Assembly: GCF_035918095.1 (NCBI RefSeq)
Contig: NZ_CP109137.1
Span: 6,264,001 to 6,328,000 of the forward strand
DNA length: 64,000 bases
Origin: Streptomyces sp. NBC_01750
GTDB lineage: Bacteria > Actinomycetota > Actinomycetes > Streptomycetales > Streptomycetaceae
Direction of reading: 5' to 3'
Shown: piece after piece, positions 13,958 through 32,171 of the stretch
Numbering within the stretch: the stretch's first letter is position 1
How the letters are laid out: each line of letters starts with the position of its first letter
Position numbers and translations under genes: made by a program
The notes under the pieces: model-generated
The model's input: the letters and a program-made list of their open reading frames with translations, nothing else
Database searches by the model: none
What the model was told of the DNA's origin: nothing

Positions 13958-14884
13958 GTGCTGGGTCCCGTCATCCTCGCCGCGTCGCGCAGCGACAAGA
14001 TGCGCCGTATCGTCTCGGCAGCCCCGGTCACCAAGCCCGTGGTGAACCGCTTCATCGCCGGTGAGACGGTCCAGGAGACGGTCCCCGTCGTCCGGAACAC
14101 GGCCGACCGGGGTCTCGAGGTCACGCTCGACGTCCTCGGCGAGGACATCACCGACCCGGCGGAAGCGCTGTGCGCCCGCGACGCCTACCTGGAGCTCATC
14201 GAGGCCCTCGAGCCGCTGGAGCTCGGGGTCCGCGCCGAGATGTCGGTGAAACTCTCCTCCTTCGGCCAGGCGCTGCCCGGAGGGCACGACCTCGCGCTGA
14301 AGAACATCACGACGGTCGTCGAGGCCGCCGCCGGGATCGGCACCACGGTCACCCTCGACATGGAGGACCACACCACCATCGACTCGACGCTCGCGATCCA
14401 CTCCGAACTGCGTGAGCGCTTCCCGCAGACCGGTGCCGTCGTCCAGTCGTACCTCTTCCGCACCGAGGACGACTGCCGCGCGCTGGCCGCGGCAGGCTCA
14501 CGCGTACGTCTGGTCAAGGGCGCCTACAAGGAGCCCGCGACCGTCGCCTACCAGGACAAGACCGAGGTCGACAAGGCCTACATCCGCTGCCTGAAGATCC
14601 TGATGGAGGGTGAGGGCTACCCGATGGTCGGGTCGCACGACCCCCGCATCATCTCCATCGGCCAGGAGCTCGCCCGCCGGGCGGGCCGCAAGCTCGACGA
14701 GTACGAGTTCCAGATGCTGTACGGCATCCGGGAGGCCGAGCAGCACCGGCTCGCCGCCGAGGGCCACCGGATGCGTGTCTACATCGCGTACGGCACCGAC
14801 TGGTACGGATACTTCATGCGCCGCCTCGCGGAGCGCCCCGCCAACCTCGCGTTCTTCCTGCGTTCGCTGGTCAGCCGCGGCTGA
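13958..14884 (+). CDS. Proline dehydrogenase (monofunctional)
   Basis: FAD-dependent oxidation of L-proline to delta-1-pyrroline-5-carboxylate, feeding electrons to the respiratory chain. At 308 aa it is the monofunctional bacterial PRODH size, a beta8alpha8 barrel. Family motifs include VTLDMEDHTTID, VRLVKGAYKEP and the C-terminal YGIREAEQHRLAAEGHRMRV, followed by YIAYGTDWYGYFMRRLAERP, which holds the substrate Tyr/Arg residues. GTG 13958 is chosen because GGAGG lies 7 bases upstream and the product then begins MLGPVILAASRSD. Its partner P5C dehydrogenase follows after 40 bases. Confidence 0.93.
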   Translation: MLGPVILAASRSDKMRRIVSAAPVTKPVVNRFIAGETVQETVPVVRNTADRGLEVTLDVLGEDITDPAEALCARDAYLELIEALEPLELGVRAEMSVKLSSFGQALPGGHDLALKNITTVVEAAAGIGTTVTLDMEDHTTIDSTLAIHSELRERFPQTGAVVQSYLFRTEDDCRALAAAGSRVRLVKGAYKEPATVAYQDKTEVDKAYIRCLKILMEGEGYPMVGSHDPRIISIGQELARRAGRKLDEYEFQMLYGIREAEQHRLAAEGHRMRVYIAYGTDWYGYFMRRLAERPANLAFFLRSLVSRG

Positions 14885-14924
14885 ACCCCCCAACTGACCT
14901 ACTGATTAAGGAGATTCGGCACTC

Positions 14925-16556
14925 ATGGACGCTGTGACCCAGGTCCCCGCGCCGGTCAACGAGCCGGTTCACTCCTACGCGCCCGGGAGCCCCGAGCGCG
15001 CCCGTCTCGAGGCAAAGCTCAAGGAGCTGTCCGAGAACCCGATGGAGCTGCCGATGACGATCGGCGGCGTCCGGCGGATGGGCGGCGGCGAGCGCGTCGA
15101 CGTCGTGCAGCCGCACAACCACAAGGCCGTCATCGGTACGTTCGCCGCTGCCACGCAGCAGGACGCGCAGGACGCGGTCGACGCCGCGCTCGCCGCCGCG
15201 CCCGCGTGGCGTGCGATGTCCTTCGACGACCGCGCCGCGATCATCCTGCGCGCGGCCGAACTGCTGGCCGGTCCGTGGCGCGAGACGCTCGCCGCCTCCA
15301 CCATGCTGGGCCAGTCGAAGACCGCTCAGCAGGCCGAGATCGACACCCCCTGCGAGCTCGTCGACTTCTGGCGCTTCAACGTCAAGTACGCCCGTGACCT
15401 GCTCGCCGAGCAGCCGCCGGCCAACTCGCCGGGCGTGTGGAACCGTATGGACCACCGCCCGCTCGAGGGCTTCGTCTACGCGATCACGCCCTTCAACTTC
15501 ACTGCGATCGCGGGCAACCTGCCGACGGCCCCCGCCCTCATGGGCAACGTCGTCGTCTGGAAGCCGTCCCCGACCCAGACCCACGCCGCCGTGCTGCTGA
15601 TGCAGATTCTGGAGGAGGCCGGTCTGCCGAAGGGCGTCATCAACCTGGTGACGGGCGACGGTATCGCCGTCTCCGAGGTGGCGCTGAACCACCCCGAGCT
15701 GGCCGGTATCCACTTCACCGGCTCGACCAAGACCTTCCAGCACCTGTGGAAGACGGTCGGCAACAACATCGAGAAGTACCGTTCCTACCCGCGCATCGTC
15801 GGCGAGACGGGCGGCAAGGACTTCGTCGTCGCCCACCCGAGCGCCGACCGCGCGGTGCTGAAGACCGCGCTGACCCGTGGCTCCTTCGAGTTCCAGGGCC
15901 AGAAGTGCTCGGCGTCCTCGCGTGCGTACATCCCCGCCTCGATCTGGAACTCCGGCTTCAAGGAGGAGTTCGCGGCCGAGGTCGACGGCATCAGGATGGG
16001 TGACGTCACGGACCTGACGAACTTCATCGGTGCCGTGATCGACGAGCGTGCCTTCGCGAAGAACAAGGCCGCGATCGACCGTGCTGCCGCCGACCCGACC
16101 TGCACGATCGTCGCCGGTGGCACGTACGACGACTCGGTGGGCTACTTCGTCCGCCCGACCGTCGTCGAGTGCACGGACCCGGGCAACGAGGTCTTCACGA
16201 CCGAGTACTTCGGCCCGTTCCTGGCCGTCCACGTCTACGAGGACGACCAGTACGACGCCATGCTCGAGCAGATGGAGTCGGCGTCGGACTACGCCCTGAC
16301 CGGCGCGGTCATCGCCAACGACCGTGCGGCGGCGGCGCACACGATGGAGAAGCTGCGGTACGCCGCGGGCAACTTCTACATCAACGACAAGTCGACCGGC
16401 GCCGTCGTCGGCCAGCAGCCCTTCGGCGGCGGCCGCGCGTCCGGCACGAACGACAAGGCCGGCGCCCCGCAGAACCTGATGCGCTGGACGCTGACCCGCG
16501 CGATCAAGGAGACGCTGGTCCCGCCGACGGACTACACCTACCCGCACATGGGCTGA
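14925..16556 (+). CDS. pruA: L-glutamate gamma-semialdehyde (1-pyrroline-5-carboxylate) dehydrogenase
   Basis: NAD-dependent oxidation of glutamate semialdehyde to glutamate, completing proline breakdown. The 543-aa protein belongs to the ALDH superfamily, P5CDH group 1. It has PFNFTAIAGNLPTAPALMGN (oxyanion Asn), the NAD-binding HFTGSTKTFQHLW, catalytic Glu in GETGGKDFVVAHP and nucleophile Cys in FEFQGQKCSASSRAYIP. The C-terminal PFGGGRASGTNDKAG is also typical. AAGGAG at 14908-14913 supports ATG 14925. It is co-transcribed with proline dehydrogenase, so the pair recreates the PutA pathway from separate polypeptides. Confidence 0.96.
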   Translation: MDAVTQVPAPVNEPVHSYAPGSPERARLEAKLKELSENPMELPMTIGGVRRMGGGERVDVVQPHNHKAVIGTFAAATQQDAQDAVDAALAAAPAWRAMSFDDRAAIILRAAELLAGPWRETLAASTMLGQSKTAQQAEIDTPCELVDFWRFNVKYARDLLAEQPPANSPGVWNRMDHRPLEGFVYAITPFNFTAIAGNLPTAPALMGNVVVWKPSPTQTHAAVLLMQILEEAGLPKGVINLVTGDGIAVSEVALNHPELAGIHFTGSTKTFQHLWKTVGNNIEKYRSYPRIVGETGGKDFVVAHPSADRAVLKTALTRGSFEFQGQKCSASSRAYIPASIWNSGFKEEFAAEVDGIRMGDVTDLTNFIGAVIDERAFAKNKAAIDRAAADPTCTIVAGGTYDDSVGYFVRPTVVECTDPGNEVFTTEYFGPFLAVHVYEDDQYDAMLEQMESASDYALTGAVIANDRAAAAHTMEKLRYAAGNFYINDKSTGAVVGQQPFGGGRASGTNDKAGAPQNLMRWTLTRAIKETLVPPTDYTYPHMG

Positions 16557-24908: not shown

Positions 24909-26339
24909 TCAGGTGGTGACGTCGACCGAGGACCGCTGGGCCGCGCCGGCCGCGGCCGGGACCGGAGCCCGCGAAGTCAGCAGCGTGTACGTCAGGCCAC
25001 CCACGATGCCGGAGAGGATGAAGCTGCAGTCCACTCCGCCCGTGAGGGCGAGCAGCGGGCCTTCGTAGACCGTCGTGGACACCGCCGTCAGGCCGACCGC
25101 CGCGCCCAGGGCCCAGGATGCCGTGGCCCTGACGTTCCAGCCCGCCCGGTACCAGTAGATGCCACCCCGGGCCCGGCGGTTGAAGACCTGCAGCGCGTCC
25201 GGGTCGTACTGGCCGCCGCAGCGCACGTATCCGATCAGCGTGATCACCGCCCAGGGGGTGCCGATGGCTGTCAGCAGCAGAACGAAGGACGTCATGGCCG
25301 ACTGCGCGTCCCATGCGAAAGAGCCGATGAACACAAACGTGGTCGCGACGACGGCAGCCATCACGGTGGCCTTGGTGCGGGTGGCCTTCGGCAGGATCGC
25401 GTCCAGGTCGAGGCCCATCGAGTACAGCATCAGGCCGGAGTTGCCGATGGAACCCGCCGAGGCCGCGAGGAGCAGTAGTGGCAGGTACCAGAAGGGCGCG
25501 GTGTCGACGAGCGGTCCCGCGTACTCCAGCCCCGCCCGGGCGGCGAGCGCCGTATACGTGCCGAACAGCTGCGGCACCAGCAGGCCCAGGAGGAGACCCA
25601 GACAGCTCGCCCAGTACACCTTGCGGGTGCTGTGGCGCCGCGGCGAGATGTAGCGCGTGTAGTCACCGAGCAGGGTGATGAAGGCGACCGGTCCGCTCAG
25701 CCCGGCGGCGACGGCCGCGAGCAGCCAGGTGGGCCAGAAGGAGCCGAGCAGGTACGGGGTGTCGGGGGGCGCGGCCGTCGTGAAGTCGCCCGCGTAGGCG
25801 AAGACCCCGATCAGCAACAGGATCACCATGCCGATGGACAGCACCTTGCTGAGCCGGAGCAGCAGCCGGTAGCCGTAGATCGCGCCGACGACCGTACAGC
25901 CCGCGAGCAGCGTGTACATCAGGGCGCGGGTGGCCCCGCCGTGGGGCAGCCCGACCAGCCGGGACAGGGCGCCGACCATCACGTCGCCACCGATCCACAG
26001 CGTGAGGGCGGTGTACCCGAGCGAGAGCAGCAGGCCGACGACCGAGCCGACGAGTCGGCCGCGTACGCCGAACTGGGCGCCACTGGACGTGGAGAGGTTG
26101 GTCGCCGTGCGCAGGGAAATCAGCGCGAGCGGGGCCGTGACCAGGATGCCGGCCAGCGTGCCGATGACGATCGAGGTCACTGAGGGCCACAGACCGAGCC
26201 CGAAGGACGGCGGCAGCCAGCCGAAGACGATCACGCCCAGGCAGAGGTTCGAGCCCAGCAGGATGGAGATGAGATCGCGTGGGGTGCTGGTGCGTTCCAC
26301 GTCCGGGATGGTGTCGACGCCGCGCTGTTCTATCGGCAT
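24909..26339 (-). CDS. NCS1-family (cytosine/purine/hydantoin-type) permease
   Basis: A 476-aa membrane transporter with about 12 hydrophobic segments. NCS1 features include the first helix LLGSNLCLGVIVFGWLPPSF, the broken helix 6 region AAGLSGPVAFITLLGDYTRY and the loop PRRHSTRKVYW. The family imports nucleobases, allantoin, hydantoins, thiamine precursors and similar nitrogenous compounds as cation symporters. It is divergent from the urease-like operon across 127 bases that hold two similar palindromes. That suggests it imports the substrate, or a precursor, of that operon. The Pro/Ala-rich cytosolic tail ends RSSVDVTT. Confidence 0.88.
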   Translation of the reverse strand: MPIEQRGVDTIPDVERTSTPRDLISILLGSNLCLGVIVFGWLPPSFGLGLWPSVTSIVIGTLAGILVTAPLALISLRTATNLSTSSGAQFGVRGRLVGSVVGLLLSLGYTALTLWIGGDVMVGALSRLVGLPHGGATRALMYTLLAGCTVVGAIYGYRLLLRLSKVLSIGMVILLLIGVFAYAGDFTTAAPPDTPYLLGSFWPTWLLAAVAAGLSGPVAFITLLGDYTRYISPRRHSTRKVYWASCLGLLLGLLVPQLFGTYTALAARAGLEYAGPLVDTAPFWYLPLLLLAASAGSIGNSGLMLYSMGLDLDAILPKATRTKATVMAAVVATTFVFIGSFAWDAQSAMTSFVLLLTAIGTPWAVITLIGYVRCGGQYDPDALQVFNRRARGGIYWYRAGWNVRATASWALGAAVGLTAVSTTVYEGPLLALTGGVDCSFILSGIVGGLTYTLLTSRAPVPAAAGAAQRSSVDVTT

Positions 26340-26364
26340 AAGGCTGCCCCTGAGACTCGGCTGT

Positions 26365-26379
26365 TTGAGTGGCGCTCAA
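26365..26379. promoter_or_regulatory. Operator-like palindrome, permease side
   Basis: TTGAGTGGCGCTCAA is symmetric apart from the centre. It lies 26 bases upstream of the permease start and matches the box at 26433-26448 at the outer positions (GAGTG..CTCAA), implying that one regulator binds both. The TetR protein encoded 3.7 kb downstream in the same locus is the prime candidate. Confidence 0.6.
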
Positions 26380-26410
26380 TCTGACGCAGGCATTGGTCCT
26401 CCGTCAATGC

Positions 26411-26448
26411 TTCCGTGAAAAGAAACTCACGGTTAGAGTGACACTCAA
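26411..26448 (+). promoter_or_regulatory. Promoter of the urease-like operon overlapped by a second operator palindrome
   Basis: TTCCGT (26411-26416), 17 bases, then TAGAGT (26434-26439) can serve as -35/-10. The -10 is embedded in TTAGAGTGACACTCAA (26433-26448), whose GAGTG-A-CACTC core is symmetric. A repressor on this site would block polymerase directly. AAGGAGGT at 26451-26458 is the ribosome site for the first gene. Confidence 0.5.
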
Positions 26449-26466
26449 ACAAGGAGGTGTGGTGAC

Positions 26467-27147
26467 GTGCGACTGACCCCGACCGAGCGCGACCGGCTGC
26501 TGCTCTTCGGCGCCGCCGAACTGGCGCGGGCGCGCCGGGCCCGTGGCCTGAGGCTCAATGTCCCCGAGGCGACCGCGCTCATCGCGGACACCGTCTGCGA
26601 GGCGGCGCGCGACGGCCGGCGGCTCGCGGAGGCGATCGAGGCGGCCCGCGCCGTGCTGGGTCCCGACGATGTCCTGCCAGGTGTGGCGGATGTGGTCACC
26701 GAGGTGCATGTGGAGGCCGTCTTCGACGACGGTTCACGGCTGGCCGTGGTCTCCGCGCCCATCGGCGGCGGGCTCGGCGACGGCGCGCCCGGCGCCGTAC
26801 TGCCCGCGCCGCCGCATACCGAGCCGGAGCCCGCACTCAGCCTCACCGTGCGCAACACGGCGGCCGTGCCGGTCAGCGTCACCTCGCACTTCCATTTCTT
26901 CGAGGCGAATCCCCGACTCGACTTCGATCGCGCTGCGGCGTACGGCATGCGGCTCTGCGTCCCCGCCGGGTCCTCCGTCCGCTTCGGCCCGGGCGGCGAG
27001 GCCGAGGTCGGCCTGCTGCCCATCGGCGGCGGCCGGATCGCGATCGGTTTCGCGGGCCTGGTCGACGGCCCGCTGGACGCGCCCGGCGCGAAGGAGGAGG
27101 CCCTGCGGCGTGCGGCGGCCTGCGGCTACCTGGGAGCGGACCGTTGA
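26467..27147 (+). CDS. ureAB: Fused urease gamma-beta subunit
   Basis: A 226-aa fusion of the two small urease subunits. Residues 1-100 match the gamma subunit (MRLTPTERDRLLLFGAAELA, ARGLRLNVPEATALIADTVC, VHVEAVFDDGSRLAVVSAPI). Residues ~120-220 match beta (LTVRNTAAVPVSVTSHFHFF EANPRLDFDRAAAYGMRLCV split over this stretch, then GFAGLVDG). GTG 26467 follows AAGGAGGT by 8 bases. Such fusions also occur in some ordinary ureases, e.g. Helicobacter UreA. It is the first gene of ureAB-ureC-deiminase. No accessory nickel-insertion genes (ureD, E, F, G) follow, so maturation must depend on genes elsewhere. Confidence 0.9.
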   Translation: MRLTPTERDRLLLFGAAELARARRARGLRLNVPEATALIADTVCEAARDGRRLAEAIEAARAVLGPDDVLPGVADVVTEVHVEAVFDDGSRLAVVSAPIGGGLGDGAPGAVLPAPPHTEPEPALSLTVRNTAAVPVSVTSHFHFFEANPRLDFDRAAAYGMRLCVPAGSSVRFGPGGEAEVGLLPIGGGRIAIGFAGLVDGPLDAPGAKEEALRRAAACGYLGADR

Positions 27148-27235
27148 GCGCCGCCCCGCGCCATACCCCGCGCAGCGAATCGGGCGGCGCCCCGCGCCTC
27201 GCGCCGTACGCCCACCACGAGTTGGAGGTCCGCTC

Positions 27236-28960
27236 ATGACCGGCAGCGGCACCAGTACCGGTACCGGCACGACCGGAATCGATCCGCACGAGTACGCGGC
27301 CGTGCACGGCCCCCGCGCCGGGGACCGGGTCGTGCTCGGCGACTCCGGGCTCGTGGTCCGCGTCGAGTCGGACACGCAGAAGCCGGGCGACGAGTTCCTG
27401 GCCGGCTTCGGCAAGACCGCGCGCGACGGGCTGCACCTGAAAGCCGCCGCCGTACGCGAGACCTGCGACGTCGTCATCAGCAACGCGCTTGTCATCGACG
27501 CCGTGCAGGGCATCCGCAAGGCGTCGATCGGCATCCGCGAAGGCCGGATCCACGCCATCGGGCGGGCCGGGAATCCGGACACCCTCGACGGTGTCGACGT
27601 CGTCGTCGGTACGGGTACGAGCATCGTGCCGGGCGAGGGCATGATCGCCACCGCCGGAGCCGTCGACACCCACGTCCATCTGCTCTCGCCGCGCATCATG
27701 GAGGCCTCGCTCGCATCAGGTGTCACCACCGTCATCGGCCAGGAGTTCGGCCCGGTGTGGGGCGTCGGCGTCAACTCGCCCTGGGCACTGCGCCACGCCT
27801 TCAACGCCTTCGACGCCTGGCCGGTCAACATCGGCTTCCTGGCGCGCGGTTCGTCGTCCCGCGACGCCCCTCTGGTGGAGGCGCTCGCCGAGGGCGGCGC
27901 CTCCGGTTTCAAGGTCCACGAGGACATGGGCGCGCACACGCGGGCCCTGGACACCGCGCTGCGCGTCGCCGAGGAGTACGACGTCCAGGTCGCGCTGCAC
28001 AGCGACGGTCTGAACGAATGCCTGTCGGTCGAGGACACGCTGCGCGTCCTGGACGGCCGTACGATCCACGCCTTCCACATCGAGGGCTGCGGCGGCGGGC
28101 ACGTACCGAACGTGCTCAAGATGGCGGGCGTACCGAACGTCATCGGCTCGTCGACCAACCCGACCCTGCCATTCGGCCGGGACGCGGTCGCCGAGCACTA
28201 CGGGATGATCGTCTCCGTACACGACCTCAAGACCGATCTGCCCGGCGACGCCGCCATGGCACGGGACCGGATCAGGGCCGGGACGATGGGCGCGGAGGAC
28301 GTGCTGCACGACCTCGGCGCGATCGGGATCACCTCGTCGGACGCACAGGGGATGGGGCGCGCCGGTGAGACCGTACGCCGCACCTTCGCCATGGCCGGGA
28401 AGATGAAGGCCGAACTCGGCCCGATGGAGGGCGACGGGGCGTACGACGACAACGCGCGTGTGCTGCGCTACATGGCGAAGCTGACCGTCAACCCGGCGAT
28501 CGCACACGGCCTCGCGCACGAGATCGGCTCGATCGAGGTGGGCAAGCTCGCGGACATCGTGCTGTGGAAGCCGCAGTACTTCGGGGCGAAGCCGCAGCTG
28601 GTGCTGAAGTCGGGCTTCCCGGCGTACGGGGTGACGGGCGATCCCAATGCGGCGACCGACACGTGCGAACCGCTCGTCCTCGGACCGCAGTTCGGGGCGT
28701 ACGGAGCGACCGCGGCTGACGTCTCGGTCGCCTTTGTGGCGAAGGCCGCGACCGAACTGGGCTCCGACCTGATGCCGACGCGCCGCCGCCGGGTCGCGGT
28801 GCGCGGCACACGCGGTATCGGCCCGGCCGATCTGCGGCTCAACTCCCGGATCGGCGAGGTCGGGGTGGACGGCGGCAGTGGCCTGGTCACGCTCGACGGC
28901 GACCCGGTGCGGTCCGGGCCCGTCGAATCGATCTCCCTCAACCGCCTCTACTTCCTCTAG
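27236..28960 (+). CDS. ureC: Divergent urease-like alpha subunit (nickel amidohydrolase)
   Basis: A 574-aa amidohydrolase aligned over its whole length with urease alpha. All expected nickel ligands are present: H146 and H148 (DTHVH), carbamylated K226 (GFKVHED), H255, H281 and D369, with the same H-H-D spacing (26 and 88 residues) as classic ureases. The general-acid histidine (H329) and flap arginine (R345) are kept. Substrate-pocket positions differ: the GGTGPA.GT.ATTCTPG loop is replaced by GQEFGPVWGVGVNSP and about four residues shorter, the flap cysteine is V328, the next His is D330, and the SSDSQAMG alanine is G372. The His-Glu-Asp-Trp motif is HEDM. It may not be a true urease. GGAGGT precedes ATG 27236; the gap to ureAB is 88 bases. 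Confidence 0.88.
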   Translation: MTGSGTSTGTGTTGIDPHEYAAVHGPRAGDRVVLGDSGLVVRVESDTQKPGDEFLAGFGKTARDGLHLKAAAVRETCDVVISNALVIDAVQGIRKASIGIREGRIHAIGRAGNPDTLDGVDVVVGTGTSIVPGEGMIATAGAVDTHVHLLSPRIMEASLASGVTTVIGQEFGPVWGVGVNSPWALRHAFNAFDAWPVNIGFLARGSSSRDAPLVEALAEGGASGFKVHEDMGAHTRALDTALRVAEEYDVQVALHSDGLNECLSVEDTLRVLDGRTIHAFHIEGCGGGHVPNVLKMAGVPNVIGSSTNPTLPFGRDAVAEHYGMIVSVHDLKTDLPGDAAMARDRIRAGTMGAEDVLHDLGAIGITSSDAQGMGRAGETVRRTFAMAGKMKAELGPMEGDGAYDDNARVLRYMAKLTVNPAIAHGLAHEIGSIEVGKLADIVLWKPQYFGAKPQLVLKSGFPAYGVTGDPNAATDTCEPLVLGPQFGAYGATAADVSVAFVAKAATELGSDLMPTRRRRVAVRGTRGIGPADLRLNSRIGEVGVDGGSGLVTLDGDPVRSGPVESISLNRLYFL

Positions 28961-28972
28961 GAGTCCGACGAC

Positions 28973-29992
28973 ATGACTTTCCGTATGCCGCCCGAGTGGG
29001 CCCCGCACGAGCGCACCTGGATGGCCTGGCCGGGCCCCAATGCCACCTTCACCGGGGACGGTCTCGCCGAGTCCCGCCGAGCGTGGGCGTCCGTCGCCCG
29101 GGCGGTACGCCGCTTCGAGCCGGTCACCGTGGTCGTGGGCCCGGGGCAGGGGGAGGGCGCCCGCGCCCTGCTCGGCCCGGACATCGACCTCGTCGAGCGC
29201 GAGCTGGACGACGCGTGGATGCGCGACATCGGCCCGACCTTCGTCACCGACGGGGCTCGACTGGCAGCCGTGGACTGGGTGTTCAACGGCTGGGGCGCGC
29301 AGGAGTGGGCCAGCTGGGAGCACGACGCGAAGATCGCCCGGCTGGTCGCGGACCTCGTCGGCGTGCCCTCGCACAGCTCACCGCTGGTCAACGAGGGCGG
29401 CGGCATCCATGTCGACGGCGAGGGCACGGTACTGCTCACCGAGACCGTGCAGCTCGGCCCCGAGCGCAACCCGGGCTGGACGAAGGAGGAGGTCGAGGCC
29501 GAGATCCATGCCAAGCTCGGCACGACCAAGGCGATCTGGCTGAAGCGCGGCCTGACCGCGGACTATCCGCCGCACGGCTACGGCACGCTCGGGCATGTCG
29601 ACATCGTCGCCGCATTCGCCGGCCCGGGGGTGATAGTCGCCCACGGCCAGCCGGACCCGGCCCACCCCGACCACGAGCTCTGCAAGGAGAACGTGGAGAT
29701 GCTGAAGTCCCAGAAGGACGCACGGGGCCGCCGTATCGAGGTCGTCGAGGTCCCGGCGCCGACCGTCGTACGGGAGGAGGACGGGGGATGGGTCGACTAC
29801 TCGTACATCAACCACTACGTCTGCAACGGCGGAGTGGTGTTGTGCGCCTTCGACGACCCGCGCGACGAGATCGCGGCGGGCATCTTCCGCCGCCTCTACC
29901 CCGGCCGCAGGGTCACGCTGGTCGACGCCCGCACGATCTTCGCCGCCGGCGGCGGCATCCACTGCATCACACAGCAGCAGCCCAGGGTCTGA
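28973..29992 (+). CDS. aguA: Agmatine deiminase-family (PAD-type) guanidine-group hydrolase
   Basis: A 339-aa enzyme of the peptidyl-arginine-deiminase-like agmatine deiminase family. The family converts a guanidino group to a ureido group plus ammonia (agmatine to N-carbamoylputrescine). Catalytic features are acidic/His residues in DDAWMRDIGPTF, NEGGGIHVDGEGTVL and YGTLGHVDIVAAF, and the nucleophile Cys331 in GGGIHCITQQQP. It starts 12 bases after the urease-like alpha stop with GGAG close by, so it is co-transcribed with it. No aguB-type carbamoylputrescine amidase is nearby, which makes the preceding urease-like complex a candidate for the next step. The true substrate is unproven. Confidence 0.88.
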   Translation: MTFRMPPEWAPHERTWMAWPGPNATFTGDGLAESRRAWASVARAVRRFEPVTVVVGPGQGEGARALLGPDIDLVERELDDAWMRDIGPTFVTDGARLAAVDWVFNGWGAQEWASWEHDAKIARLVADLVGVPSHSSPLVNEGGGIHVDGEGTVLLTETVQLGPERNPGWTKEEVEAEIHAKLGTTKAIWLKRGLTADYPPHGYGTLGHVDIVAAFAGPGVIVAHGQPDPAHPDHELCKENVEMLKSQKDARGRRIEVVEVPAPTVVREEDGGWVDYSYINHYVCNGGVVLCAFDDPRDEIAAGIFRRLYPGRRVTLVDARTIFAAGGGIHCITQQQPRV

Positions 29993-30133
29993 TGTCCCCC
30001 GCCCCTGCGCTCGCGCCGGGACGAGGACGGCTGGATCGCCATGGACGACGGGTGAGATCAGGTAGAACATACGGGTGAATGTGTTCCTCAGCGCGAGATG
30101 CGGCCGCGCTCCGAGCGCGCCGGTGGCCGCCGA

Positions 30134-30745
30134 ATGACCCCCGCCCCGCGCCGCCGCAACATCGCGCCGCCACGAGAGTCCGTCCTCGTCGCCGCCATGG
30201 CCACCATCGCCGAGCGCGGCCTCGACGGGCTCACCATGGCCGGGCTCGGCCGTGAGGTGGGGATGAGCAGCGGGCATCTCCTCTACTACTTCCGTACCAA
30301 GGACGAGCTGCTCCTGCAGACCCTCGAGTGGAGCGAGGGCCGCCTCGGTACCGAGCGCAGTGCCCTGCTCTCCCAACAGGCCACCGCCGCCGAACGTCTC
30401 GACGCATACGTCGATCTCTACGTCCCCGACGGGCCCCGCGACCCGCACTGGACGCTCTGGCTCGAGGTCTGGAACCGCTCGCAGAACGCCGAGGCCGACG
30501 CCCGTGCCCGGCAGGCGGCCATCGAGGGCGCCTGGCACAGGGACCTCGTCGCGCTGATCGCCGAAGGCATCTCGCGCGGCGAGTTCCATGCCGTCGACCC
30601 CGACCGGTTCGCCGCCCGGCTGCGCGCCCTCCTCGACGGTTTCAGCGTCCATGTCGCCGTCGGAATACCGGGCACAGGACGCCCCCAAGTCCTCGCCCAC
30701 GTACGGGAATTCCTCGACGAGACGCTGCTCGGGCCCGCCCGCTGA
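30134..30745 (+). CDS. TetR-family regulator, BetI-like
   Basis: About 203 aa from ATG 30134; ATG 30098 in frame would add 12 Arg-rich residues, and neither has a ribosome site. The helix-turn-helix reads LTMAGLGREVGMSSGHLLYY then FRTKDELLLQTLEW. The C-terminal domain, with HWTLWLEVWNRSQNAEADAR, is the BetI/YsiA-like class that senses small metabolites. It lies downstream of the agmatine deiminase-family gene in the same direction (141-base gap) and before an MHS transporter. It is the likely ligand-responsive repressor of the palindrome-bearing promoters at 26.4 kb. Confidence 0.85.
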   Translation: MTPAPRRRNIAPPRESVLVAAMATIAERGLDGLTMAGLGREVGMSSGHLLYYFRTKDELLLQTLEWSEGRLGTERSALLSQQATAAERLDAYVDLYVPDGPRDPHWTLWLEVWNRSQNAEADARARQAAIEGAWHRDLVALIAEGISRGEFHAVDPDRFAARLRALLDGFSVHVAVGIPGTGRPQVLAHVREFLDETLLGPAR

Positions 30746-30839
30746 CCGACGTCTCGGGAACGCAACGCACGCAAGTACTCCCGATCGTTGCCGCCCGCCG
30801 TCTTGTTGAGGTAGTGCCCCTCCGGCACGGTTTCACCTC

Positions 30840-32171
30840 ATGGGACGAGAGCACTGGAAGAAGATCTGGGTCGGTTCCGCCGGCAACATGGTCGAGTGGT
30901 TCGACTGGTTCGTGTACGCGAGCTTCGCGACCTATTTCGCGGGGGCGTTCTTCCCCGAAGGGAACGACACCGCCAAGCTCATGAACACCGCCGGCATCTT
31001 CGCCGTCGGCTTCTTCATGCGACCGGTCGGCGGCTGGCTGCTCGGCCGGGTCGGTGACCGCAAGGGCCGCAAGGCGGCGCTGACCCTGACCGTCAGCCTG
31101 ATGTCCGCATCCGCGATCCTCATCGCGGTCGCGCCCACCTACGGCGTCGCGGGCTACGGCGGCGCCGTGGTGCTGCTGATCGCCCGCCTCCTCCAGGGCC
31201 TCTCCGTCGGCGGAGAGTACGCGGCCAGCGCGACCTACCTCACCGAGGCCTCCGCCCCCGAGCACCGCGGCTTCGCCTCCAGCTTCCAGTACGTCTCGAT
31301 GACCGCGGGCCAGATCGTCGGCCTCGGTCTGCAGATCATCCTGCAGCGCACCATGTCCGACGACGCCCTGCACAGCTGGGGCTGGCGCATCCCGTTCATC
31401 ATCGGCGCACTGGGCGCGGCGATCGTCTTCTATCTGCGCCGCAACATGCTCGAGACCGATGTGTACGAGGAGTCCGGCGACGACACCCCCGCCGGGGACA
31501 AGGGCACCATCAAGGCCCTGTGGGCGCACAAGCGCGAGGCGTTCCTGGTCATCGCCCTGACCATGGGCGGCACCGTCGCGTACTACACGTACACGACCTA
31601 CCTCACCAAGTACCTCTCCAACTCGGCCGGGCTGCCCAAACAGACCGCGACGCTGGTGTCCTTCTGCGCGCTGCTCGTCTTTGCCTGTCTGCAGCCGCTC
31701 GCCGGCAAGCTCTCCGACCGGATCGGCCGCCGTCCGCTGCTGATCACATTCGCGGTCGGCTCGACCTTCCTGACCGTGCCGATCATGACGATGCTCAAGC
31801 ACGCGGGCTCGTTCTGGCCGGCGCTGGGGCTTGCGCTGCTGGCCCTTGTGGTGATCACCGGCTACACATCGATCAACGCGTGTGTGAAGGCCGAGCTGTT
31901 CCCGACGGGCATCCGCGCGCTGGGCGTCGCGCTGCCGTACGCCATCGCGAACGCGCTGTTCGGCGGCACGGCGGAGTATGTGGCCCTCTGGTTCAAGGAC
32001 GCCGGCCGTGAGTCGGGCTTCTACTGGTACGTGGCGGGCTGCGCGGCGGTGTCGCTGGTGGTCTATCTGTCGATGCGCGAGACGCGTGACATCGACCTGA
32101 ACCGGGTGACGGCGCCGTCCCCCGCGCCGCACGAGGACGCGGTCGCCCCGGCCCCGGCCCGGGTGGAGTGA
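30840..32171 (+). CDS. MFS transporter, metabolite:H+ symporter (MHS; KgtP/ProP-like)
   Basis: A 443-aa, 12-TMS symporter of the MHS branch (alpha-ketoglutarate, proline/betaine, shikimate and citrate carriers). It begins with GSAGNMVEWFDWFVYASFAT, the family's first-helix signature. It has GRVGDRKGRKAALTLTV in loop 2-3, LLQGLSVGGEYAASATYLTE in helix 4-5 and LSDRIGRRPLLI in loop 8-9. A Pro/Ala-rich C-tail follows. It lies 95 bases after the TetR gene and may be part of the same catabolic locus, possibly importing an organic acid, betaine or amine. A repeat-rich spacer follows it. Confidence 0.88.
   Translation: MGREHWKKIWVGSAGNMVEWFDWFVYASFATYFAGAFFPEGNDTAKLMNTAGIFAVGFFMRPVGGWLLGRVGDRKGRKAALTLTVSLMSASAILIAVAPTYGVAGYGGAVVLLIARLLQGLSVGGEYAASATYLTEASAPEHRGFASSFQYVSMTAGQIVGLGLQIILQRTMSDDALHSWGWRIPFIIGALGAAIVFYLRRNMLETDVYEESGDDTPAGDKGTIKALWAHKREAFLVIALTMGGTVAYYTYTTYLTKYLSNSAGLPKQTATLVSFCALLVFACLQPLAGKLSDRIGRRPLLITFAVGSTFLTVPIMTMLKHAGSFWPALGLALLALVVITGYTSINACVKAELFPTGIRALGVALPYAIANALFGGTAEYVALWFKDAGRESGFYWYVAGCAAVSLVVYLSMRETRDIDLNRVTAPSPAPHEDAVAPAPARVE

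Follow-up and report, generated by a model that had tools for sequence, protein, structure and literature searches.

A UreC-like amidohydrolase linked to a PAD_porph deiminase in Streptomyces: a candidate ureidohydrolase apart from canonical ureases

Genes and features of the locus

The window analysed here, a stretch of 64,000 nucleotides from Streptomyces sp. NBC_01750, carries a gene cluster encoding a fused urease gamma/beta subunit (UreAB-like), a urease alpha-like protein (UreC-like) and a predicted guanidino deiminase of the PAD_porph family. The cluster is placed between leuB/ilvE and cimA in a 9-Mb genome. We propose, with a probability of roughly 60%, that the UreABC-like complex is a UreD/UreF-independent amidohydrolase that cleaves monosubstituted ureas made by the deiminase. 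An earlier note on this DNA (the original prediction) had given the coordinates, the gene order and a 12-bp spacing between the UreC-like and PAD_porph genes, and all were recovered when re-checked in the window. The genes and features are as follows:

24909..26339, minus strand: NCS1-type permease, divergent from the urease-like genes (PF02133, 296.6 bits; TIGR00800 far under cut-off)
26364..26379: palindrome 1, operator-like, in the NCS1/ureAB intergenic region (pattern TWGARNRNNRYTCWAA)
26433..26449: palindrome 2, operator-like, directly upstream of ureAB (same pattern)
26467..27147, plus strand: fused urease gamma/beta subunit, UreAB-like (NF009671, 312.7 bits, cut-off 243; PF00547, PF00699)
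27236..28960, plus strand: UreC-like amidohydrolase of 574 amino acids, metal ligands kept, urea pocket rewritten (PF00449, PF01979)
28973..29992, plus strand: predicted PAD_porph guanidino deiminase, agmatine-deiminase-like (PF04371, 365.2 bits; TIGR03380, 298.5 against a cut-off of 381.8)
30098..30745, plus strand: BetI-type TetR regulator (PF13977, PF00440), matched in 12 of 20 related loci
30840..32171, plus strand: MHS-type MFS transporter, adjoining the cluster, matched in 0 of 20 related loci

Domains for all three urease subunit types (alpha, beta and gamma) are present (PF00547, PF00699, PF00449, PF01979), and the best matches of the UreC-like protein were mostly from Streptomyces among the matches listed. 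The same genome encodes a second UreC at 1.36 Mb, which has a canonical pocket and adjoining UreF and UreD genes. Neighbouring genes in related loci were called with a simple GC-based gene finder, and their starts are approximate.

The palindrome pattern TWGARNRNNRYTCWAA has three matches (two sites) in the window, all in the NCS1/ureAB intergenic region, and none in 100 shuffles of the window. It occurs in 21 of 118 loci at 14 distinct places, having been derived from the same loci in which it was then counted; these include L108 and L107 (L numbers denote loci and G numbers genomes), where the palindrome precedes a PAD gene that has no accompanying ureC. The palindromes are likely candidates for the site of the linked TetR regulator.

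Metal site, pocket and phylogeny of the UreC-like protein

The original prediction had read the nickel-ligand residues of ureases as intact, and H146, H148, K226, H255, H281 and D369 are indeed all kept in the sequence, as are H329 and R345; H228 is kept too. K226 occupies the position of the carbamylated lysine in ureases, and the binuclear metal ligand set is complete. We take H228 to be the urea-carbonyl histidine, H329 the general-acid histidine and R345 the catalytic arginine. The protein scored 633 bits with the NCBIfam urease-alpha equivalog TIGR01792, under its cut-off of 680, passed the broader urease-alpha subfamily model NF009686 (732 against a cut-off of 354), and matched ureases in the PDB with E values as low as 8e-152.

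The predicted rewriting of the urea pocket was also confirmed. Relative to jack bean urease (3la4, with residue numbers counted along the alignment), four residues are missing from the pocket loop and GPAAGT is replaced by GPVWGV, the flap C592 is replaced by V328, the next histidine H594 by D330, and A636, the alanine after SSD.Q, by G372. Jack bean A440 aligned with V179, a pairing that lies beside the gap and is hence uncertain. Jack bean A440, C592, H594 and A636 are presumably urea pocket residues. Loss of the flap cysteine was dropped as a stand-alone marker, since the otherwise canonical UreC of L021 also has valine.

In an alignment of 33 clade proteins, whose members we chose and whose identity ranges down to ~50%, the six metal ligands, H228, H329, R345, Q169, W175, V328 and G372 are invariant. 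Such invariance of pocket residues across the clade is expected under selection, not decay. A rewritten urea pocket and the lack of adjoining accessory genes might suggest that the UreC-like subunit is non-hydrolytic, a scaffold or sensor with a retained metal site. However, the six metal ligands, the catalytic histidine and the arginine are invariant in the 33 proteins and the small subunits are kept, which makes this explanation highly improbable.

Relatives of the protein extend beyond the window's genus. In a sample of the phylum, 88 of 396 genomes had any match, with identities of at least 87% only in the window's genus, and 64 of 299 genomes of another class (inferred to be Thermoleophilia) had any match. 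With the UreC of G208 as query, 20 of the same 299 genomes gave full-length matches of at least 55% identity, and all 20 carry the signature Q[DE].GP[VI]W.LG, HEDV, H[IV]EG and SSD.QGMGR and lack the His-His flap.

A tree of 53 UreC proteins placed 30 signature rows on one side of a branch with a Shimodaira-Hasegawa-like approximate likelihood ratio test (SH-aLRT) value of 97, and 14 canonical UreC rows formed their own side of a branch (SH-aLRT 100). A second tree of 72 rows, with 20 rows added from archaea, Bacteroidota, Bacillota, Chloroflexota and further Actinomycetota, was built with the pocket columns removed, and 37 signature rows again fell on one side of a branch (SH-aLRT 98). The canonical label needs two changes in this tree, and a Thaumarchaeota row labelled canonical (L163) has a VTVGI-type loop. 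The original prediction had named nesting among ordinary ureases as the phylogenetic finding that would speak against it; in both trees, which are quick trees with no bootstrap and do not include proteobacterial fused-UreAB ureases of the Bradyrhizobium type (PMC2492869), the clade is not nested among the canonical ureases sampled. The UreC-like proteins are a clade in Actinomycetota apart from the canonical ureases sampled.

Two further groups of non-canonical UreC were found, one comprising L071 and L072 and the other, with an EPAW loop, comprising L027, L031 and L033. The latter three and L038 belong to a divergent group in which the UreC loop is shorter and the flap reads IVHEGNP; three sampled genomes of this group had no UreF or UreD match, and in L038 the UreC gene adjoins Pot-type importer genes. 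The UreC proteins of L015, L019, L074, L075, L078 and L163 have a VTVGI-type loop and glycine in place of Ala636, with the flap Cys-His kept. Two VTVGI-type UreC genes, seen in L035 and L037, are adjoined by ureD and ureG, and one VTVGI-type UreC is in a Thaumarchaeota record. In L098 (7929-11525) and L099, a UreC variant has the loop GGAFDLGIGP and the motif SSDSMGMGR.

Deiminase, accessory genes and other partners

Among the matches listed, which do not include the weakest ones, 99 of the 150 genomes of the window's family (Streptomycetaceae) carry a clade UreC at an identity of at least 75%. PAD_porph was found in all 99 carriers versus 9 of the 51 non-carriers (none in 42 of 51; Fisher p ~1e-28, with relatedness ignored). 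This one-way dependence, in which the clade UreC always occurs with PAD_porph, fits a UreC-like enzyme acting after the deiminase. Among the nine genomes with PAD but no clade UreC, G421 and G436 have fragments of a clade UreC that are truncated by contig ends (L105 and L118; L101). The PAD gene of G107, G442 and G448 lies near a contig end with no second UreC match listed, so that a gap and a loss look alike, and in G399 and G520 the DNA read contains PAD but no UreC.

The position of the PAD gene varies, from downstream of ureC (the window and, in the other class, L034) to upstream of ureAB (L081, L083, L085, also of that class) or divergent (L086 and L089 of the other class, and L133), and linked PAD paralogues diverge down to 38% identity. 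D85, E141, H208, D210 and C331, which we take to be the guanidino-modifying catalytic residues, are invariant in all 20 linked PAD proteins. Assignment of the neighbour to the agmatine deiminase family in the original prediction is borne out by the PF04371 match and these residues, whereas its TIGR03380 score does not reach the curated cut-off for agmatine deiminase; agmatine as the substrate is therefore a guess.

A second copy of the cluster in G352 combines another PAD (45% identical to that of the window) with additional PAD_porph genes and an ABC importer of the Opp type. Clusters of this second type were also seen in L109-L112; L108 has features of both types, with NCS1 next to the second-type PAD and Opp genes. 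In L040, L109-L112 and L108, an Opp-type ABC importer and ureABC-like genes are accompanied by as many as four PAD-like genes (by tblastn), and some second-type PAD paralogues have Tat-like or lipoprotein-like starts, as judged by eye and a simple pattern. Second-type clusters could serve outside-plus-inside deimination of a larger guanidino compound.

A scan of named genomes gave at least 588 loci, and the DNA of 80 of these was examined. Loci were assigned to the signature class by W175, G372 and a non-Cys flap, with L124 and L132 added by hand on the loop; 4 of the 19 signature loci (L119, L121, L122 and L129) are duplicate records from the genome samples. Q169 is kept in all 19. PAD was found near 7 of the 19 signature loci and near none of the 61 loci with a canonical flap cysteine. 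Linked ureD/F/G genes showed the opposite distribution (0 of 19 versus 58 of 61), and the predicted lack of ureD/F/G near the UreC-like gene thus held in the loci compared.

The genome-wide accessory search covered UreF and UreD. Ten of the 99 family carriers were without UreF, and seven of these were also without a UreD match; in the remaining three, G492 and G517 have UreD and G171 has a UreD fragment below the cut-off. The canonical UreC of G171 (C1:445167-448932) is broken into two pieces, of which one contains a stop; the UreC-like copy of this genome is intact. Outside the family, 25 genomes have a non-canonical UreC (20 of the signature class, two of the L071/L072 kind and three of the EPAW kind); UreF was not found in 23 of them, UreD in 22, and neither in 22 (19 signature). 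In each of the exceptions, G218, G665 and G758, a contig with UreD also carries another UreC match or fragment; the one in G218 differs in its loop (L035). By comparison, UreF and UreD are both present in all five genomes whose UreC matches reach only 44-47%, and the pocket was read in two of these (L073, L080). Overall, 29 genomes carry a non-canonical UreC (26 signature) with neither UreF nor UreD found, seven in the family and 22 outside, and four genomes (G457, G524, G406 and G725) are single contigs that are 95-100% complete. The clade persists where UreD and UreF were not found, and the UreC-like enzyme may be active without them.

These genomes also bear on a second true urease with relaxed sequence, which would be matured in trans by the canonical UreDFG and whose PAD linkage would reflect joint nitrogen scavenging. 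Such a role would agree with the retention of all metal ligands, H228, H329 and R345, and with the presence of UreF in 89 of the 99 family carriers. Earlier work grouped SCO5525-5526 with urea-utilizing genes (PMC3293853) and regarded ure(AB)C as a cluster for urease (PMC2492869). However, the changed pocket positions are invariant in the aligned clade, the clade is not nested among the canonical ureases sampled, neither UreF nor UreD was found in the 29 genomes above, and the PAD pairing goes unexplained because a deiminase releases no urea. We regard a second true urease as unlikely.

Nickel, taken as given in the original prediction, does not hold as such, many relatives being without UreD or UreF; the site may bind nickel, iron or some other metal. 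That a urease paralogue can use a different metal has a precedent in the iron urease of Helicobacter. In L081 (5615-8241), genes for metal transporters of the MgtE_N/CBS and NRAMP kinds come after the UreC-like gene, a possible hint to the metal, but this is a single locus and was not accepted as proof. NikA-like naming of the Opp-type binding proteins in L034 and L040 was rejected as a sign of nickel import (scores of 122 and 127 bits, with the cut-off at 600).

Partners other than PAD were examined in 54 loci of our choice, which include three other variants (L038, L098 and L099). Within 5 kb, we found PAD in 27, glycerate kinase in nine, an Opp-type binding protein in seven, NCS1 in five, a YtcJ-type amidohydrolase in five, a Pot-type binding protein in three and a hydantoinase-like gene in two. 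Pot-type genes sit further out in the freshwater loci too. The hydantoinase/allantoinase-like gene beside the UreC variant of L098 scored 308 bits with the allantoinase model (cut-off 358) and has a relative in L099; this partner supports a ureido substrate, because its class also makes ureido products. Glycerate kinase adjoins the UreABC-like genes at nine loci in two surroundings within one family of the other class (L087-L093, L095-L097); the nine genomes of the main genus there are without PAD_porph, and G676 (L097) has two PAD_porph genes elsewhere. In freshwater actinobacteria (L142, L144, L160 and L162) there is a run of YtcJ-type amidohydrolase, ureAB-ureC-like, C45 acyltransferase-like, D-amino-acid-oxidase-like and Pot-like importer genes, whose families were checked in L160.

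Differing partners (PAD, hydantoinase-like in L098 and L099, glycerate kinase at nine loci and YtcJ-type at five) and differing importers (NCS1, Opp-type and Pot-type) would also be expected of a general ureidohydrolase family with a lineage-dependent substrate unrelated to agmatine, such as N-carbamoyl amino acids or ureidoglycolate-like or hydantoin-derived compounds, for which PAD would be one feeder. This explanation overlaps with the one we prefer and differs from it in scope. However, the PAD link is exceptionless in the 99 family carriers, which favours the deiminase product there, and we consider a substrate unrelated to agmatine rather improbable.

The transport and regulatory parts of the original prediction fared unevenly. 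The MHS carrier, without a match in the related loci, does not stand as part of the system. The NCS1 importer adjoins the cluster in the window but is not constant (5 of 20 related loci). Linkage of the TetR gene recurs in the majority of the related loci, and its sensor role remains a proposal.

The locus of Kribbella catacumbae DSM 19601 (L133) offers a different arrangement. One run, headed by PAD, includes genes for three importer proteins, namely a PotA-like ATPase, a PotD-like binding protein and a fused permease, all three of which score under the equivalog cut-offs (356/482, 113/582 and 196/326 bits, respectively). This run is divergent from ureAB-ureC-like genes, behind which come fragments of class-III aminotransferase and alanine dehydrogenase genes as well as an aminobutyraldehyde dehydrogenase (678 bits against a subfamily cut-off of 615). 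The aminotransferase is seemingly split over two frames, its second part being named by our own reading, and the deposited alanine dehydrogenase is short. Further along, at 14501-15445, is another PAD-like gene. By analogy, the layout resembles a route from agmatine through putrescine to 4-aminobutyrate, in which the UreC-like complex would take the AguB step. An aldehyde-dehydrogenase match in L041 was a distant relative (26%) and was not used.

Proposed function and comparison with known systems

We propose that the locus encodes a short pathway for the breakdown of a guanidino compound, whose importer in this genome is probably the divergent NCS1 permease. The PAD_porph enzyme would strip ammonia off the guanidino group to give a monosubstituted urea (R-NH-CO-NH2), which would be N-carbamoylputrescine if agmatine were the substrate. 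The UreABC-like complex, a predicted binuclear metal amidohydrolase independent of UreD and UreF, would then hydrolyse the ureido group, releasing the free amine together with ammonia and CO2, which is AguB's job elsewhere. The TetR regulator probably controls the divergent promoter through the two palindromes. We infer substrate, pathway direction, metal, maturation and regulation from context.

The claim that a urease relative hydrolyses the ureido product of the deiminase, which the original prediction had made, gained strong context from the complete co-occurrence in 99 of 99 carriers, the varied PAD pairings, the Kribbella locus and the trees, whereas the MHS carrier, a constant NCS1 importer and nickel did not survive as parts of it. 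Several observations weigh against our proposal. Activation in trans is possible in the 89 family carriers that also have UreF, and many of the genomes outside the family are incomplete (metagenome) assemblies. No PAD_porph was found in 17 of the 25 genomes that lie outside the family and have a non-canonical UreC, and the nine glycerate kinase loci have that gene nearby instead of PAD. V328 varies outside the 33-protein set, to alanine or serine, and the flap cysteine is kept in L124 and L132. The Kribbella layout is one locus whose aminotransferase and alanine dehydrogenase look incomplete as deposited, and its aminobutyraldehyde dehydrogenase missed the equivalog cut-off (551 against 909). 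Finally, S. coelicolor has scattered homologues of the whole arginine-decarboxylase pathway according to PMC3293853, so AguB may exist.

Since PAD is absent or replaced in many genomes, its product cannot be the substrate everywhere. Because partners differ and PAD is often absent, 'ureidohydrolase' is favoured over 'N-carbamoylputrescine hydrolase' as the predicted family function, with the deiminase product favoured as the substrate in the window. More tentatively, and with slightly less than even odds in our judgement, this Actinomycetota branch of the urease family would comprise not ureases but UreD/UreF-independent metallo-ureidohydrolases that act on monosubstituted ureas and replace AguB-type enzymes in the breakdown of guanidino compounds, and that in other lineages are fed by hydantoinases or others.

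The genes themselves are already known. Clusters of only ure(AB)C were noted in S. coelicolor and S. avermitilis, and a tree rooted on SCO1234 grouped Streptomyces UreC with the fused-UreAB copies of Bradyrhizobium and Pseudomonas (PMC2492869). SCO5525-5526 are listed as urea-utilizing and SCO5527 is among the arginine-decarboxylase-pathway homologues (PMC3293853). A mention of SCO5526 in PMC4991794 concerns nrdABS and was set aside. Among the matches listed in the open-access literature, we found no functional study of the complex and no account of the likely function of these genes. If our proposal is true, a broad clade with a kept metal site, a changed pocket and members in genomes where UreD and UreF were not found would suggest a second maturation route and a second chemistry for the fold, many 'urease subunit alpha' names would be wrong, and predictions of urea use for Streptomyces and soil Actinomycetota would need correction. 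Where PAD-type deiminases occur, the UreABC-like complex is a candidate enzyme to hydrolyse the N-carbamoyl amine.

Canonical nickel ureases (UreABC; 3la4, 4z42, 1fwj) have the same three subunit types, metal ligands, general-acid histidine and arginine, a textbook narrow substrate range and a dependence on dedicated nickel chaperones. In contrast, the GGGTGPA.GT.ATT.TPG loop is here Q[DE].GP.W..G, the flap His-His is lost, Ala636 is replaced by glycine, PAD_porph is linked, and ureD/F/G are unlinked in all 19 signature loci. Helicobacter UreA2B2 (3qga) is an iron urease, a paralogue beside the nickel enzyme (PMC11541087). The UreC-like protein differs from it in its rewritten pocket and its deiminase partner. 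We take the Helicobacter enzyme to be a true urease with a normal pocket, which presumably has no need of nickel chaperones.

AguA followed by AguB yields putrescine, ammonia and CO2 (PMC9397018). The AguB step is the one proposed for the UreABC-like complex. AguB is a nitrilase-type enzyme, whereas the complex has amidohydrolase and urease domains and not a nitrilase fold. Within the AguA/PAD_porph family, the window enzyme shares the Asp, Glu, His, Asp, Cys site but scores under the AguA equivalog cut-off, and one stretch of it is shorter than in plant agmatine deiminase. Hydantoinases, allantoinases and dihydropyrimidinases belong to the same amidohydrolase superfamily as the UreC-like protein. 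Hydantoinase-type enzymes have binuclear sites with a carboxylated lysine formed without chaperones, act on cyclic ureides and have no UreA/UreB-type subunits.

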